A DNA stretch of 11,783 nt, from assembly GCA_005881995.1 (NCBI GenBank), contig VBHV01000558.1:3936-15718 (forward strand). The letters are read 5' to 3'. Shown here one piece after another: positions 1,773-10,395 of this stretch. Below the pieces are notes generated by a model. That model ran no database searches. It saw nothing but the letters and a program-made list of their open reading frames with translations, and was not told where the DNA came from. The position numbers and the translations under genes are program-made. The stretch comes from Chloroflexota bacterium (GTDB lineage: Bacteria; Chloroflexota; Ktedonobacteria; Ktedonobacterales; Ktedonobacteraceae). Numbering within the stretch: the stretch's first letter is position 1; each line of letters begins with the position of its first letter.

Positions 1773-1910
1773 GCAATAAAGAGACTTTCGGTTCAGGTTA
1801 TTGGGAGGAGTAGGGATATCGTTCGTGCAAGTTCAGGCTTCATTACTACCCCTGAAAGTAATAAAGCTCAATGTGTGAAGCCCCTCTACAGGCGGCTTAA
1901 GGTGCTAGTT

Positions 1911-2241
1911 ATGGCCTATTTTTTAGCAAAAACCGACCCTGAACACTACTCCATCGACAACCTGGAGCAGGACAAAGCAACCGTATGGGACGGAGTACGC
2001 AGCGCCGCGGCGCTGCTTGCTATCCGCGCCATGCGGCCCGATGACGAGGTGCTGATTTACCACAGCCAGGGAGAAGCCGCCATCGTCGGGCTGGCGCGTG
2101 TAGTCTCAGAACCCCGTCCAGACTCCAACGACCCGAAAAGCTGGGTGGTTGATATAGCGTTTATCCGCCGCCTTGAGCAACCAATCACCCTGCGGGAACG
2201 AAAATGTCGTGGCATGGCTCAAAGAGAAAAAAGTGTTGTAG
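1911..2241 (+). pseudogene. EVE-domain protein broken by an internal out-of-frame deletion
   Basis: EVE domains are PUA-like folds thought to bind modified nucleobases. From ATG 1911, 96 residues follow the family closely: MAYFLAKTDPEHYSID at the start, WDGVR, the MRPDDEVLIYHS segment, IVGLARVVSEPRP and VVDIAFIRRLEQPITLRE. At 2198 homology stops in this frame and resumes at once, one base later, in the next frame as ENVVAWLKEKKVL ending at TAG 2239-2241, which is how such proteins end. The usual roughly 25-residue segment between them, with the DW.LVRQ.RLS motif, is missing. The frame-shifted product would run on with unrelated sequence to 2435, inside the next gene. ATG 1911 has AAGG 8 nt upstream; GTG 1875 is an alternative but adds a non-family extension. 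Probably non-functional. Confidence 0.75.
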
Positions 2242-2246
2242 GAGAT
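2241..2246 (+). promoter_or_regulatory. Shine-Dalgarno that sets a TTG start
   Basis: GGAG (2241-2244) overlaps the ancestral EVE stop codon (TAG 2239-2241) and sits 7 nt before TTG 2252. No in-frame ATG or GTG lies at a suitable distance, and the family's N-terminus begins here. Confidence 0.65.
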
Positions 2247-2251
2247 CACCA

Positions 2252-3094
2252 TTGGATAACAGCGCAACCTGGTATGTTGGCGGATGCTGGGTGCATCCCC
2301 ACGAAGCCACGCTCTCGATTAACGACATCGCGGTGCTGCGCGGCTACAGCGTCTTCGAGTCACTGCGCACCTACGACCGCCGCCCATTCCACCTCGACGA
2401 ACACCTCAAGCGCCTCTACCAATCTGCTGTATTGATCGGATTAGAGATACCCTGGTCATCCAGGTTTATCGCTGACATCATTCGCGAGACGATAGCGCGC
2501 AACACCTACAAACACGCGTCGATTCGCCTGCTGTTGACCGGTGGAGAAAGCGAGGATGGCATCACGCCATCTGGTAAGCCGGTATTGCTAGTTATGATCA
2601 CTCCCCTGGGAGAGCGCGATATGCAGCGATTTGCCAGGGGCATCAAGCTCATTATCACCAGGCTGCAGCGTGAAGCGCCAGAGGCAAAGACCACCAATTA
2701 TATGGCAGCAGTACAAGCATTGAAAGAGGCCGCGAACCGCGGAGCTGCGGATGCCCTCTTCGTCAATGAACAGGGGCATGTCCAGGAGGCGACGCGCAGC
2801 AACTTCTTCATATTTCGAGGCGATATCCTGGTCACACCCCGCGATGGCGTATTGCACGGCATCACCCGCAATGTTGTGCTACAACTCGCGCAAGGCCGCT
2901 TTGCCGTCGAGGAACGCCCGATCCTCCTGGAAGAATTGCTATTGGCCGACGAGGCCTTTATCACCTCGTCCTCTAAAGAGATTACCCCGGTCGTGCAGAT
3001 CGACGACCTGGTGATTGGCAGCGGCAAACCAGGGCCGCGTACTACTGAACTGGAACAGCGATTTATTGAGATGATCGAGCAAGGAGACTTTTAG
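2252..3094 (+). CDS. PLP-dependent class IV aminotransferase (BCAT/D-amino-acid/ADC-lyase family)
   Basis: A 280-residue enzyme, the usual length for fold-type IV PLP enzymes, which transfer amino groups from branched-chain or D-amino acids or act as aminodeoxychorismate lyase. It opens with DNSATWYVGG, then SVFESLRTY and the FHLDEHLKRL helix. Lys146 in EAKTTNY is the PLP Schiff-base lysine and Glu179 in QEATRSNFF contacts the pyridine nitrogen. The ITSSSKEITPV segment near the C-terminus is typical. Substrate cannot be decided; the overall look is closest to BCAT-like proteins. I chose TTG 2252 because of the SD at 2241. An open frame reaches back to ATG 2204, but those 16 residues are out-of-frame EVE sequence. 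It is followed after 9 bp by a dehydrogenase gene and is probably co-transcribed with it. Cytoplasmic. Confidence 0.88.
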   Translation: MDNSATWYVGGCWVHPHEATLSINDIAVLRGYSVFESLRTYDRRPFHLDEHLKRLYQSAVLIGLEIPWSSRFIADIIRETIARNTYKHASIRLLLTGGESEDGITPSGKPVLLVMITPLGERDMQRFARGIKLIITRLQREAPEAKTTNYMAAVQALKEAANRGAADALFVNEQGHVQEATRSNFFIFRGDILVTPRDGVLHGITRNVVLQLAQGRFAVEERPILLEELLLADEAFITSSSKEITPVVQIDDLVIGSGKPGPRTTELEQRFIEMIEQGDF

Positions 3095-4026: not shown

Positions 4027-6252
4027 TTACGCTGGCACCCGCTCTTCTTGCAGACTGGCTGCAAACTGGGGATCGACTAATCTAAAGGACTCCACAAAGT
4101 CTTTCTGGTTGTAGAGTGCTTGCAGGACTTCTTGAGTCAGGGCAGCAAGAGCGGAATCAGGGATATTTTCCCCACCTCCCTCTTCCCACGCGCTTGCCCA
4201 CACCGCGGCCATACATTTACAGCCCTCGGCTATACAGGTGACCGTGCGCTCTCCAAGGACACTCCACATATTCTGGAGCAGCTGCCTTCCGCCCCCCTGG
4301 TCGAACGTATTGATGATATCCATAGGAGGGAGCGTAGCAATGCTCCTGCGCATCAAGTCCACCACGGCTAGAGCAGTGGCGTGCCCTCCTTGAAACGCAG
4401 GCTGTATTTTGGTCTGTTGCAGAGCCTGATTGACACCGGCAATGACATCTGGCGCGAAAGCGTCCATCATACTGGTCTCGTACTTTGAATGCACGGGGAT
4501 CTCTTCGTGGTGATCCGGTCGACCATGATGCAGGTACGACACGTGGAGCGGTTGACAGGCATCGCCCACGTAGTGCGAGACAATGCCCCCAGCGCAGATA
4601 AACTCGGTAATTTTTCCCGCCTTGACAAATTGCACCATCTGACTATACATCTGCCAGACGCGGAAGGGAAGTGCGCCGCGTTTGTCCACATTGAGACTCT
4701 CGTAGTAGTGATTCCACGTGTCAACGCTCAGGTTATTCGGGTCCTGGCACAGATCTAACAGGGTTTTCCCACTGAAGTCTCCCTGGCCCTCTTGGTCCAT
4801 ATCCGCAAAATGATTGAATTCATCCTCCGGGCGCGTCCTACGCCAGACCAGGTCGGCCACATCGGCCAGCGGGACAAATTGGTGCGCATCGATTGCTCGA
4901 ATCTGTCCAGATTGAATGGCCTCATCACGGAAGGCAATCAAATCAACATTGTTATGAAGCAATTGGCTTAGCCTGGGATCGGTCACCAGTTCGCAGGCTT
5001 TGGCCGCAATCTTGTAGTGCCCCGTCGCGCCCCAGTATTCTCTGTGCCCGATATTCCAGCCACGAAAGACATCGACGTCCAGTTCGCGGCAGATTGTGCT
5101 GAGGCAGGTTGCAAGCGCAAAGCGGAAAGTCACCTTCCCTTGCCCATCCAGCAGCTCATGACCACCCCACTGAAGAGCAATTGGGCGATAACGGCGTGCT
5201 CGCCCTCCTTGCTCTGGTATTGGTTCATCAAAGAACCAGACCGTACCAGAATCCCCCGGGTGGGTGTTCAGTGGCATCTGCTCATTACGTGGGCCGATTA
5301 ACAATTCGCTGACATAATCAAACCCGCCTGTTGATTTATAACGATAAAAGAGTGCCTGGATTTCCCCGACCAGTTCACCGGAAGCGCCACCGAAGGCACG
5401 CATAGGACAACCAATGAGATCGAGCGAGAGAGTATCGGAGTTGAGATCCACGGGCTCACCAAGTTCGCCAACACCAAACACCTGCGCAGTCCAACAATTC
5501 ATATCTTCCACATCAATCAGGCCTGCATCCATGTTCAAGTAGGAGCGAGTCCCCGAAAATGCCTCATACACCTCTTGAAAGGGCTTCTTGCCCACCTGGT
5601 TCTTGTAAGATCTACCTATTTGTTGGCGTTCTCCGCCAAGTAAGGAGTAAACCGGACGCCCTTGCTCTCCTGTAACGTGGCGATTGGTGAGTGCGTAAAC
5701 CGCATCTCCATCTGAGACAAGGCAACCAAGCGATCCGATGTGGGCCTCGCCCTGCACATCCGTCAGCACAGGATAGCCGCCACCAATCAACATGTCAGGA
5801 AACGCTATATTCTGAAGCGGCGGAGGTGCTTGTTCCTGTTCTTCCACGAGCAGGACGCATGTGGGCACAACCCGGCCATCGGGCATATAGAGGAAACGCG
5901 GAACGACCTGGTCGGGATCCTCTTTAAGTAGCTCCTCCTGCGACTGCCACCGATTCACAAACACAAGCACGCAAGGCCATGACCAGGGCGTCACTACCGT
6001 ATTTTGCAAAGTGCGAACAGGAGAAGTTCTCCCACTTCTCTTCTCAAGCGGATGTTTTGCTACTTTCGCATCAGGATCACTGCTGCGGATGCGATACAAG
6101 CCAATAGCAGTCGCAACAACATTTTCTAAGTGGGCAAGGTGTACATGGTAGGCCTCACGCGCCTGTAGCAGATCATATATGGAAAGTGACTTAAAGTCTC
6201 TTTTCCCAGGGAAAAAACTTTTCATAGGTACATTCTTTCTAAAGGAAACCAT
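4027..6252 (-). CDS. Trypsin-like serine protease fused to zinc-dependent phospholipase C/P1-nuclease domain
   Basis: A 741-residue two-enzyme protein. Residues about 30-388 form a chymotrypsin-fold protease: triad His192 in ALTNRHVTG, Asp242 in NMDAGLID, Ser335 in HPGDSGTVWF. The region before it (ENVVATAIGLYRI, then DGRVVPTCVL) is a common lead-in of bacterial trypsin-like peptidases; the LTNRH core also recalls plant NAL1. Residues 407 to about 700 form a phospholipase C/S1-P1 nuclease fold with candidates for all nine zinc ligands: Trp407 and His412 (WGATGH), Asp443, His481 (NHFADMD), His560/Asp564/His570 (HYVGDACQPLH), and His588/Glu592 (HSKYE). HxxxE is as in phospholipase C, while QPLH and the W-to-H spacing are as in P1 nuclease, so phosphodiester substrate class is open. 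No signal peptide or membrane segment is seen. ATG 6252 has no SD; ATG 6225 (Met10) with AGAAAG 9 nt upstream may be the real start. Confidence 0.85.
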   Translation of the reverse strand: MVSFRKNVPMKSFFPGKRDFKSLSIYDLLQAREAYHVHLAHLENVVATAIGLYRIRSSDPDAKVAKHPLEKRSGRTSPVRTLQNTVVTPWSWPCVLVFVNRWQSQEELLKEDPDQVVPRFLYMPDGRVVPTCVLLVEEQEQAPPPLQNIAFPDMLIGGGYPVLTDVQGEAHIGSLGCLVSDGDAVYALTNRHVTGEQGRPVYSLLGGERQQIGRSYKNQVGKKPFQEVYEAFSGTRSYLNMDAGLIDVEDMNCWTAQVFGVGELGEPVDLNSDTLSLDLIGCPMRAFGGASGELVGEIQALFYRYKSTGGFDYVSELLIGPRNEQMPLNTHPGDSGTVWFFDEPIPEQGGRARRYRPIALQWGGHELLDGQGKVTFRFALATCLSTICRELDVDVFRGWNIGHREYWGATGHYKIAAKACELVTDPRLSQLLHNNVDLIAFRDEAIQSGQIRAIDAHQFVPLADVADLVWRRTRPEDEFNHFADMDQEGQGDFSGKTLLDLCQDPNNLSVDTWNHYYESLNVDKRGALPFRVWQMYSQMVQFVKAGKITEFICAGGIVSHYVGDACQPLHVSYLHHGRPDHHEEIPVHSKYETSMMDAFAPDVIAGVNQALQQTKIQPAFQGGHATALAVVDLMRRSIATLPPMDIINTFDQGGGRQLLQNMWSVLGERTVTCIAEGCKCMAAVWASAWEEGGGENIPDSALAALTQEVLQALYNQKDFVESFRLVDPQFAASLQEERVPA

Positions 6253-7238: not shown

Positions 7239-8114
7239 ATGCCAAAACGCGCTCGCGTAGCATTAAAAGTGAACAACCTGGCATCCAGCGTCACCTTTTA
7301 CGTCGATAGCCTGGGTTGCCAACTCGTAGAGGGCCAGCCGGATGCCGACATGGCTGTTGTCCTCGATCCTTACGGTGACCTTCTCCTGTTAGCCGGGCCT
7401 GAAGCTAAAGATGTAAAGAATCACCTGGATGAGACATGCGTCATTTATAAGCCAGGAGATACCCTCGATCTCTCAGAACAAGAGGAAAACCTCGATGCGC
7501 GCCTCGCGGCTCTTACCGCACGCGGCTTGACCGATATCCACCAGGAGCAAACTGCCGAGGGCGACCGCAAGCTGACCATCAAAGACCCAAGCAACTATAC
7601 GATTACCTATATTCAACGCGTGCAGCGCTCTCCCGAGGAAACGAGAGCGCTGTATGCCAGGGGAGGAGACGACCTGGAAGCTGTCCTGGCAGGGTTAACT
7701 GAAGCTGATCTCGACCTTACACGCGCCCCGGATGAGTGGTCTATCCGCCAGATTGTTCACCACCTTGCCGAAGTCGATGCTATGTTCCTCATGATTTTTG
7801 AGTCGGCTCTTGCTCAGCCCGGCATTACCTTTATCCGCAACACCTACGACCAGGCTCACTGGGCAGAAACGCTGGCCTACAAAGAACGAACGATTGAACC
7901 ATCCCTCGCATTGATCAAAGCCACACGCCAACATATTGCAAGACTCTTACAGCATATTCCCGATCATTGGGATCATTTTGTACTGTTGAAGTTTGCAAGC
8001 GACGAGGGTGAGGGGTACAAGATGACTGTCGGACAACAGCTGAGTGAAATGAACTGGCATCAAGCAGAACACTGCGAGGAGATTAATGAGACACGCCGCA
8101 TCCACGGTCGCTAA
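7239..8114 (+). CDS. VOC (glyoxalase-like) domain fused to DinB-like domain
   Basis: A 291-residue two-domain protein. Residues 1 to about 128 look like one VOC module: a short N-terminal strand ending ARVALKVNNLASSVTFYVDSLG, then a LDPYGDLLLLAG strand and a C-terminal half ending IKDPSNYTITYIQRV. VOC proteins include glyoxalases, dioxygenases and drug-binding proteins. Residues about 135-291 form a DinB-type four-helix bundle with EWSIRQIVHHLAEVD and HQAEHCEEI; His175, His274 and His278 fit the metal triad of DinB/bacillithiol-transferase-like proteins. No substrate can be named. Thiol-dependent detoxification is a reasonable guess because both folds host such enzymes. Start ATG 7239 has GAGGGA about 6 nt upstream. 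The fusion reads through without a stop. It lies behind the F420-reductase-like gene and before a hairpin. Confidence 0.85.
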   Translation: MPKRARVALKVNNLASSVTFYVDSLGCQLVEGQPDADMAVVLDPYGDLLLLAGPEAKDVKNHLDETCVIYKPGDTLDLSEQEENLDARLAALTARGLTDIHQEQTAEGDRKLTIKDPSNYTITYIQRVQRSPEETRALYARGGDDLEAVLAGLTEADLDLTRAPDEWSIRQIVHHLAEVDAMFLMIFESALAQPGITFIRNTYDQAHWAETLAYKERTIEPSLALIKATRQHIARLLQHIPDHWDHFVLLKFASDEGEGYKMTVGQQLSEMNWHQAEHCEEINETRRIHGR

Positions 8115-9665: not shown

Positions 9666-10274
9666 TCAAGCTACGCCGCCAAGCTGCGCCGGTTCCTTGC
9701 GTCCCAGAAAATGCGCCGCAGCCTCCTTCAACCGCGTCTCACTGCGCACGCCAAAACCGGACAACTTACGGAGGCGCTGCTGATGAGCCGCCCACCACAG
9801 CTTTTCGGGCGAATCGATGCCCAGTTCTTCATACAAGCGGATAGCAACATGCGGGCCAACATGCTCGACCGCCATCAATGAACGCGCGCCCTGGGGCAAG
9901 GATTGCATGCACAGATCATTGTAGAATGTCATCGTACCCGTGCTCACCAGCTCGGCGATGCGCATCTGCAAACGCCTGCCCAGACCCGGCACAGGCAATA
10001 GTTCACCTCGCGCGACAATTGCCGCGGCAGGTTCCTGCAATTCCAGCACTCCACGAGCCGCGTTACGGTATGCCTGTATACGATACGGGTTACTATTTTG
10101 AAACTCCAACAGGCTGGCGATACTCGAAAGCACCTCGGCAACCTGGCGATTCGTCACCATTGGCCGTGTTGTTTGTTCTGCCTCTAAACCCGGCAGCATT
10201 GGCTGCACAGGCTGCTTCCCTGGCTTGCCGTAAGCATAAGGCATTATTTGGATGGTTTGTGTAAGCTGCATCAT
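9666..10274 (-). CDS. Stand-alone helix-hairpin-helix protein (PolX N-terminal-like)
   Basis: A 202-residue protein equivalent to the DNA-binding N-terminus of family X DNA polymerases without the palm. After a loose, Pro/Gln-rich first 40 residues comes an 8-kDa-domain-like helix bundle (VAEVLSSIASLLEFQ, then NPYRIQAYRNAARGV), followed by three HhH units: VPGLGRRLQMRIAEL (about 95-109), VEHVGPHVAIRLYEELG (136-152) and LSGFGVRSETRLKEAA (171-186). No nucleotidyltransferase GS motif or catalytic Asp pair and no PHP domain follow, so it is unlikely to polymerise DNA. A role in binding gapped or branched DNA is inferred. I chose ATG 10274 over ATG 10373 because AAAGAGG lies 9 nt before it, while 10373 lacks an SD and falls about 15 nt after the predicted transcription start; the extra 33 residues look like leader. 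Confidence 0.8.
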   Translation of the reverse strand: MMQLTQTIQIMPYAYGKPGKQPVQPMLPGLEAEQTTRPMVTNRQVAEVLSSIASLLEFQNSNPYRIQAYRNAARGVLELQEPAAAIVARGELLPVPGLGRRLQMRIAELVSTGTMTFYNDLCMQSLPQGARSLMAVEHVGPHVAIRLYEELGIDSPEKLWWAAHQQRLRKLSGFGVRSETRLKEAAAHFLGRKEPAQLGGVA

Positions 10275-10283
10275 AGAGTTCAG

Positions 10284-10290
10284 CCTCTTT
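10284..10290 (-). promoter_or_regulatory. Shine-Dalgarno that decides the helix-hairpin-helix protein start
   Basis: AAAGAGG on the minus strand lies 9 nt before ATG 10274. The longer reading frame start at 10373 has no comparable site. Confidence 0.65.
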
Positions 10291-10395
10291 TCTTCACAGA
10301 CGCCCTGTCTGGTCTCTATCTCTCTATTCTTTTTGCGCCGCCCCAATGTGGAAAACTGCGCATTAGTGTACAAGATACATTGAAATCTTGTTCTA

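Follow-up and report, generated by a model that had tools for sequence, protein, structure and literature searches.

A NAL1-like protease fused to a PLC/P1-type zinc enzyme: a possible self-maturing metalloenzyme of bacteria

How can an enzyme whose relatives build their metal site on a free N-terminal tryptophan function when that tryptophan lies in the middle of the encoded chain? The question is raised by one open reading frame at positions 4027..6252 (reverse strand) of the window, the stretch of 11,783 nucleotides from a Ktedonobacteraceae contig analyzed here. The frame encodes 741 residues, with a protease half first and a zinc-enzyme half second.

Integrity and distribution of the fusion

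Of 7996 candidates scored in a protein search with the fusion, 2330 matched at an E value of ≤1e-3; the top 120 of these are nearly all full length, and those that have a name are mostly called "hypothetical protein," with a few called "S1/P1 Nuclease." Scanning genome contigs with an alignment of the family (A1) yielded 78 loci, while the same kind of scan with the single window protein as the query gave no match. At 75 of the 78 loci, the match extends from residue 25 or earlier to residue 665 or later and spans both halves. The order of a protease followed by a zinc enzyme, described in a sequence-only reading of this DNA, is thus shared by relatives, and the genome survey proposed there shows that the join is not an artefact; a frameshift or chimeric join is ruled out. 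The titles of the loci include Ktedonobacter, Archangium, Minicystis, Bradyrhizobium, Burkholderia, Sphingomonas, Acidobacteria, Bacteroidetes, Mycobacterium, Isosphaeraceae, Rokuibacteriota, Krumholzibacteriia, and Obscuribacterales, among others, which we take from these titles to represent about ten phyla. In draws of genomes by phylum, a full-length fusion was found in 1 of 151 genomes for Ktedonospora, 1 of 296 for Pseudonocardia, 1 of 188 for Minicystis, and 2 of 247 for Chryseolinea, four of the five being in the genomes on which the draws were centered. Relatives occur in four plasmid records, and none was found in the one phage collection searched. The fusion is widespread but patchy.

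One in-frame stop was present in each of 3 of the 78 loci. The copies of Ktedonobacter racemifer (L007), a Ramlibacter metagenome-assembled genome (L055), and Minicystis rosea (L078) are broken by a stop or frame break, and the Ktedonobacter copies L002, L005, and L011 are intact, the last two being carried on separate contigs of Ktedonobacter sp. SOSP1-85. At locus L008, the fusion is preceded by a long open frame that itself has no Pfam match. When the halves were considered separately, 78 of 119 N-half matches contained both motifs. Among the 119 C-half matches, the N termini inspected by eye were those with the Trp motif in the initial 60 residues and those lacking it; none of these had a clear signal peptide directly before the motif, and many seem to be fragments of the fusion or alternative gene calls of it. 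Proteins P0327 (with a cluster of 249 members) and P0343 belong to a group in which the chain begins 10 to 12 residues ahead of the Trp of an EHWG motif; this start may reflect the gene calling, or the group may have a two-gene form.

The protease half is NAL1-like

Residues 20 to 399 (5056..6195, reverse strand) form a module consisting of a helical/alpha-beta N-terminal part and a chymotrypsin fold. The Pfam family Nal1_C matches residues 165 to 366 with 32.1 bits against a cut-off of 26.1, and it matches 27 of 27 members of alignment A1 at an E value of ≤0.01. A search of solved structures with the single sequence (E ≤ 1) returned rice NAL1 chains only, the best at 8.6e-7 over residues 93 to 365, and a NAL1-type fold is predicted by structure modeling for the N-terminal part together with the protease. 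The trypsin-like triad already assigned to the 741-residue chain holds: His192 (5677..5679), Asp242 (5527..5529), and the nucleophile Ser335 of the GDSG motif (5248..5250), all on the reverse strand, are invariant in all covering rows, with His192 aligned with LTNRHV and Ser335 with GDSG of NAL1. The protease half is therefore NAL1-like, belonging with the rice NARROW LEAF 1 family. The aligned part of rice NAL1 ends a few residues before the point at which the zinc domain of the fusion begins, and NAL1 itself is not known to carry such a zinc domain. In a Mycobacterium genome, Nal1_C additionally matches L096, which is a different protein and not the fusion.

The zinc half belongs to the PLC/P1 superfamily

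The second half, residues 407 to 696 (4165..5034, reverse strand), scores below the Pfam cut-offs in the window protein (S1-P1_nuclease, 16.1 versus 29.5; Zn_dep_PLPC, 16.7 versus 26.8), and the S1-P1 cut-off is exceeded by two fusion places in other genomes. At E ≤ 0.01, S1-P1 is matched by 24 of 27 family members and Zn_dep_PLPC by 23 of 27. The mixture of phospholipase C and P1 features noticed earlier is confirmed. Modeling predicts a PLC/P1 fold for this half, so that the structure prediction put forward as a check in the sequence-only reading returned both of the predicted folds. The zinc half may be a phosphodiesterase, acting as a nuclease or a phospholipase C.

Nine zinc ligands had been proposed for this domain, and all but one of them stand. 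Among 121 near rows, neither the triad nor any of the originally listed ligands varies, except for D443, which is present in 120. In a broad set of 79 rows, D443 is found in only 52 of 78 rows, and the triad and remaining ligands are kept in every covering row. The residues D464 and D467 are each present in 78 of 78 rows of the broad set. When 13 stand-alone relatives were aligned with 11 fusions, position 467 was Asp in 24 of 24 rows and position 464 fell in a gap in the stand-alone relatives. These results rule out D443 and D464 and place Asp467 (4852..4854, reverse strand) in the set, which becomes W407, H412, D467, H481, H560, D564, H570, H588, and E592. The eight side-chain ligands of the superfamily are thus conserved, as assigned from alignment; the last of them is Glu, as in PLC.

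An internal tryptophan at the place of a mature N terminus

The zinc ions of S1 nuclease are coordinated by the main chain of Trp21, which becomes N-terminal after signal cleavage (PMC5201275, in part). In the portion of PMC10576769 consulted, Listeria PC-PLC is described as binding metal through main-chain atoms of W1, as being an inactive proenzyme until a protease takes off its propeptide, and as losing its activity when one extra residue stands ahead of W1.

The counterpart of this residue in the fusion is Trp407 (5032..5034, reverse strand), which is kept in 224 of 224 rows even though it is internal in the encoded chain. Its neighbor, residue 406, varies in the same rows (Y185, T25, F5, S4, R2, I2, and V1). 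The S1-P1 Pfam match of the window protein begins at Trp407 with profile position 1. Among 22 fusion-bearing genomes, 26 S1-P1 matches were found, comprising 12 fusions and 14 other frames, and all 12 fusion places begin at profile position 1. In the alignments of a first structure model, residue 407 is paired with residue 1 of the P1 nuclease, AtBFN2, and Listeria PC-PLC chains. In a second model, the zinc-domain alignments listed begin at residue 408 or later, with one exception; Trp407 is unclearly seated in that prediction, which is weakly compatible with a blocked Trp.

Stand-alone members of the superfamily look different at this point. Of the 14 S1/P1-type frames that are not fusions, 12 have the Trp after a hydrophobic, signal-like stretch, as judged by eye, with one residue between the two in L106; the exceptions are L107, which has an internal Trp and lacks the signal-like stretch, and L109, which lacks the Trp. 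The best 13 stand-alone Bacteroidota relatives all have a signal-like stretch ahead of a WGxxGH motif (13/13, by eye), with about five residues in between in L137. This count leaves aside L128 and L129 (Trp after a hydrophobic stretch, without WGxxGH), L130, and L151, in which the motif precedes the first Met. The first 45 residues of the window protein contain no hydrophobic stretch (best 12-residue hydropathy mean, 0.56), and in the first 45 residues of 120 near homologs, none reaches a 10-residue hydropathy of 2.0. The absence of a signal peptide is judged here from hydropathy alone, a measure that separates the two groups imperfectly, since five stand-alone signal stretches range from 1.92 to 3.29 and the highest value of a fusion is 1.99. 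Export by a signal peptide, a trait of the superfamily, thus appears to be missing from the window protein, and the protease occupies the place where stand-alone relatives have their signal-like stretch.

With the signal-like stretch absent and the Trp invariant, metal binding by Trp407 in the usual way requires that the chain be cut directly ahead of it. Since an added residue inactivates the solved relative (PMC10576769, in part), the encoded form of the zinc half could well lack activity, and the earlier impression that both halves look active calls for revision in view of the internal position of Trp407.

The junction coevolves with the protease

The junction, residues 391 to 406 (5035..5082, reverse strand), is of fixed length. 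L391 and H412 delimit a segment of 22 residues in 224 of 224 rows, despite the variable sequence of residues 397 to 406; among segments of 22 residues taken from along the query, 90% show a constant length in a smaller share of rows (median, 82%). The pLDDT here is <50 at residues 398 to 408 in the first model and has a mean of 70 over residues 401 to 410 in the second.

Residue 406, a Tyr in the window protein and the proposed P1 residue, covaries with Gly364 (5161..5163, reverse strand) of the QWGG strand, which putatively lies beside the substrate pocket. By mutual information with average-product correction, the pair 364-406 ranks second of 195,256. When position 406 is Y, F, or R, residue 364 is Gly in 190 of 192 rows; none of the 32 rows with T, S, I, or V at 406 has Gly364. 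Bulky residues at 406 are thus paired with Gly364, and small ones mostly with a larger residue at 364. In 111 added rows from outside the ranking set, many of them fragments, the ratio of Gly to other residues is 89/2 with bulky and 5/15 with small residues at 406 (Fisher P, 1.4e-12, only a guide because the rows are related). Among 37 representatives at 50% identity, the corresponding ratios are 23/2 and 1/11 (P, 1e-6).

Relatedness was also addressed with a FastTree tree of 335 rows, from the building of which columns 406 and 364 were excluded. The class of residue 406 changes 8 times and that of residue 364 changes 8 times, with 3 changes on common branches; under random placement by branch length (100,000 trials), the P value is 8e-5, which is no independent test because 364 was picked from overlapping data. 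An earlier tree of 224 rows, with 4 and 6 changes, of which 3 were shared, likewise gave 8e-5. Column 364 tops 60 comparably variable columns of residues 20 to 399 in this test; the runner-up, column 332, lies three residues ahead of Ser335 and shares 3 of 26 changes, and columns 330 and 361, presumed to be near the pocket, share 1 branch each. The signal of the tree test is carried by few independent switches; three of the eight changes at 406 and five of the eight at 364 fall on tips or pairs, and one branch has a support of 0.19.

Across all rows, the exceptions to the coupling are small residues at 406 with Gly364 (5 of 52 rows) and bulky residues without it (4 of 283 rows); in one of the latter, P0312, the upstream stretch seems to be nonhomologous. 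Residue 405 covaries with positions 257, 340, 255, 42, and 364, and residues 404, 409, and 410 covary mostly with positions other than those. The rows with Arg406 (L034 and P0153) both have Gly330 and acidic residues at 196, 210, 226, and 371.

By way of its W-G motif, we take QWGG at 361 to 364 to correspond to the chymotrypsin segment 214 to 217, which flanks the S1 pocket. In chymotrypsin and elastase, a bulky side chain needs room in the pocket, whereas a small one tolerates a pocket that is filled or open. The five rows combining a small residue with Gly364 are in keeping with this relation, since a small residue tolerates an open pocket. The simplest reading of the covariation is that residue 406 would be the P1 residue of the substrate of its own protease and residue 407 the new N terminus. 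From the coupling of 406 with 364, together with the Trp at the junction, we infer a cut between residues 406 and 407 that would activate the zinc enzyme.

A proposed proenzyme activated by its own protease

We therefore put forward, as a somewhat probable reading of the sequences, a cytoplasmic single-chain proenzyme whose NAL1-like protease would cut between residues 406 and 407 and thereby activate the zinc domain. An upstream step would trigger the serine protease of residues ~20 to 399, which would then cleave its own chain, in cis or between subunits. Once cut free, the C-terminal domain would begin with Trp407, whose main chain would complete the three-zinc site, and the domain would turn into an active phosphodiesterase, either a nuclease or a phospholipase C. 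By freeing Trp407, the protease would take over the job that signal peptidase performs in the stand-alone secreted relatives. The active enzyme might serve to dismantle the cell's own nucleic acid or membrane in suicide, developmental lysis, or defense.

The fuller proposal, on which we are evenly divided, is that of a self-maturing metalloenzyme in which a NAL1-type protease has replaced the signal peptide and makes the N-terminal Trp by the 406|407 cut. Such an enzyme would be protease gated, cytoplasmic, encoded by one gene in what we presume to be about ten phyla, possibly used for self-destruction, and a counterpart of plant NAL1. Compared with the sequence-only reading, the NAL1 relationship, the missing signal peptide, and the coupling of the junction with the protease are new.

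Gene neighborhoods and a possible role in defense

A role as an antiviral effector would be compatible with the proenzyme reading: infection would trigger the protease, and the zinc enzyme would destroy DNA, RNA, or membrane and so stop the phage. The patchy occurrence speaks for such a role, as do the published precedent of protease-activated nucleases (PMC12799240, in part) and the presence of relatives in the four plasmid records. One of these was inspected for its neighborhood (L152, on the conjugative plasmid p1 of Sphingobium fuliginis, NZ_CP060037.1); here the copy adjoins an annotated anti-phage dGTPase and a ParD/RelE-type toxin-antitoxin pair, followed by transposition genes. Each of the scanned members (27 of 27) matches the PADLOC model PDLC03017, which is named "trypsin-like" and lacks a description, and so does each half of the protein separately. 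The model says little, however, because it also matches a trypsin-ATPase protein over residues 9 to 565 of 611. A search with PADLOC models of 299 genomes of the phylum of genome G007 matched the center genome and G263 only, and the latter match is ruled out as a fusion, its protein being the trypsin-ATPase. In G263 (L099), the protein with trypsin-like and ATPase-like parts adjoins a second trypsin-like gene, and the PADLOC names there are "trypsin-like" and "nacht."

The neighborhoods showed no link to defense. After removal of 21 near-duplicate or partial loci, 58 loci with script-called genes were left, the window included, and no neighbor family occurred within two genes of the fusion in more than 3 of them. 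The commonest Pfam family among 100 genes adjoining the fusion was seen 3 times. At E ≤ 1e-8, the adjoining genes matched 19 PADLOC models with 7 names, and 100 distant control genes from the same loci matched 10 models with 8 names; single PADLOC-type matches beside some copies also occur among the control genes. An origin in defense islands is thus not supported by either comparison, and no sensor domain was found in the family protein. On balance, we regard an antiviral role as rather unlikely.

The genes around the fusion in the window encode a kinase, an EVE-domain protein, aminotransferases, dehydrogenases, and others, among which no functional link to the fusion was seen. Among 14 genomes searched, the nearest relatives of the aminotransferase neighbor, at 52% identity, lie in three Ktedonobacter genomes, a weak hint of an uncultured Chloroflexota-like host. 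The EVE-domain frame (1875-2435, forward strand; E, 8.7e-26) overlaps an aminotransferase class IV frame (2204-3094, forward strand), and either the C-terminal part of the EVE protein may be truncated or the aminotransferase may start further downstream. Also in the window are a 291-residue protein (7239-8114, forward strand) with a glyoxalase-type and a DinB-like domain and a 235-residue PolX-like helix-hairpin-helix protein (9666-10373, reverse strand) without a polymerase match.

Alternatives to self-cleavage

The internal Trp407 could instead work uncut, in an independent bifunctional enzyme whose halves act on separate substrates of one pathway. The catalytic sets of both halves are conserved, as such an enzyme would have it, and the related frame L107, whose internal Trp has no signal-like stretch ahead of it, counts in its favor and against the proenzyme. 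We consider it improbable, as it leaves unexplained an invariant Trp407 beside a variable residue, the junction length kept in 224 of 224 rows, and the coupling of residue 406 with the protease.

That coupling would also be expected from an uncut linker docked in the protease cleft, or from packing on residue 364. In the predicted monomer, residues 403 to 406 form no strand and thus show no docking, which counts against the self-cleavage reading. A pseudo-substrate lock, in which the uncut linker holds residue 406 in the pocket and blocks both halves until an outside signal or protease arrives, would likewise account for the coupling of 406 with 364 and for a junction of constant length, but we find it hard to credit, as the site of an outside protease has no need to coevolve with this pocket and an uncut junction keeps Trp407 blocked, a state that costs activity in the solved relative (PMC10576769, in part).

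Relation to known systems

No description of the fusion was found in searches of the open-licence literature, and the family is large yet nearly anonymous. The self-cleavage reading makes a sharp prediction, namely, that a single bond is cleaved and that a single activity depends on its cleavage. If it is true, a further fold would join the proteolytically gated effector enzymes of bacteria, an enzyme class matured by secretion would be shown to be usable inside the cell, and a plant developmental protease family would be linked to bacterial relatives with a defined self-substrate.

Among the closest precedents are pairs of a protease and a nuclease. In Hachiman and Avs systems, trypsin-like proteases activate MBL-fold pro-nucleases by cutting them (Tuck et al. 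2025, PMC12799240, in part). By analogy, the Hachiman, Avs, Lamassu, and DRT pairs would share with the fusion a trypsin-like protease and a metal enzyme that becomes active after proteolysis; in the same portion of that source, they differ in that the MBL-fold nuclease has a gene of its own and the protease forms a fusion with a defense enzyme. The fusion has a protease of the NAL1 type and a zinc domain of the PLC/P1 fold within one chain, rather than an MBL-fold pro-nuclease from a neighboring gene, and no defense core was seen beside it. In NucA-trypsin systems, for which a proteolytic cascade has been proposed, a trypsin-like peptidase and an endonuclease likewise occur together, sometimes in one protein, but the nuclease is HNH-type, and the PLC/P1 fold and a junction Trp are absent from the section seen (Kaur et al. 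2020, PMC7159879). Trypsin domains are also listed in related systems (Kaur et al. 2021, PMC8195603, in part). The terms "NAL1" and "P1 nuclease" do not appear in the main texts of PMC12799240, PMC7159879, and PMC8195603.

Within the PLC/P1 superfamily (B. cereus PLC, Listeria PC-PLC, S1, P1, AtBFN2, and SmNuc1), the fusion stands apart in having no signal peptide and an internal Trp. Listeria PC-PLC is similar in that a propeptide ahead of Trp1 holds the enzyme inactive until its removal (PMC10576769, in part). In that enzyme, which is exported, the propeptide is taken off by a separate metalloprotease, whereas in the fusion the presumed activator would be a serine protease in the same chain.
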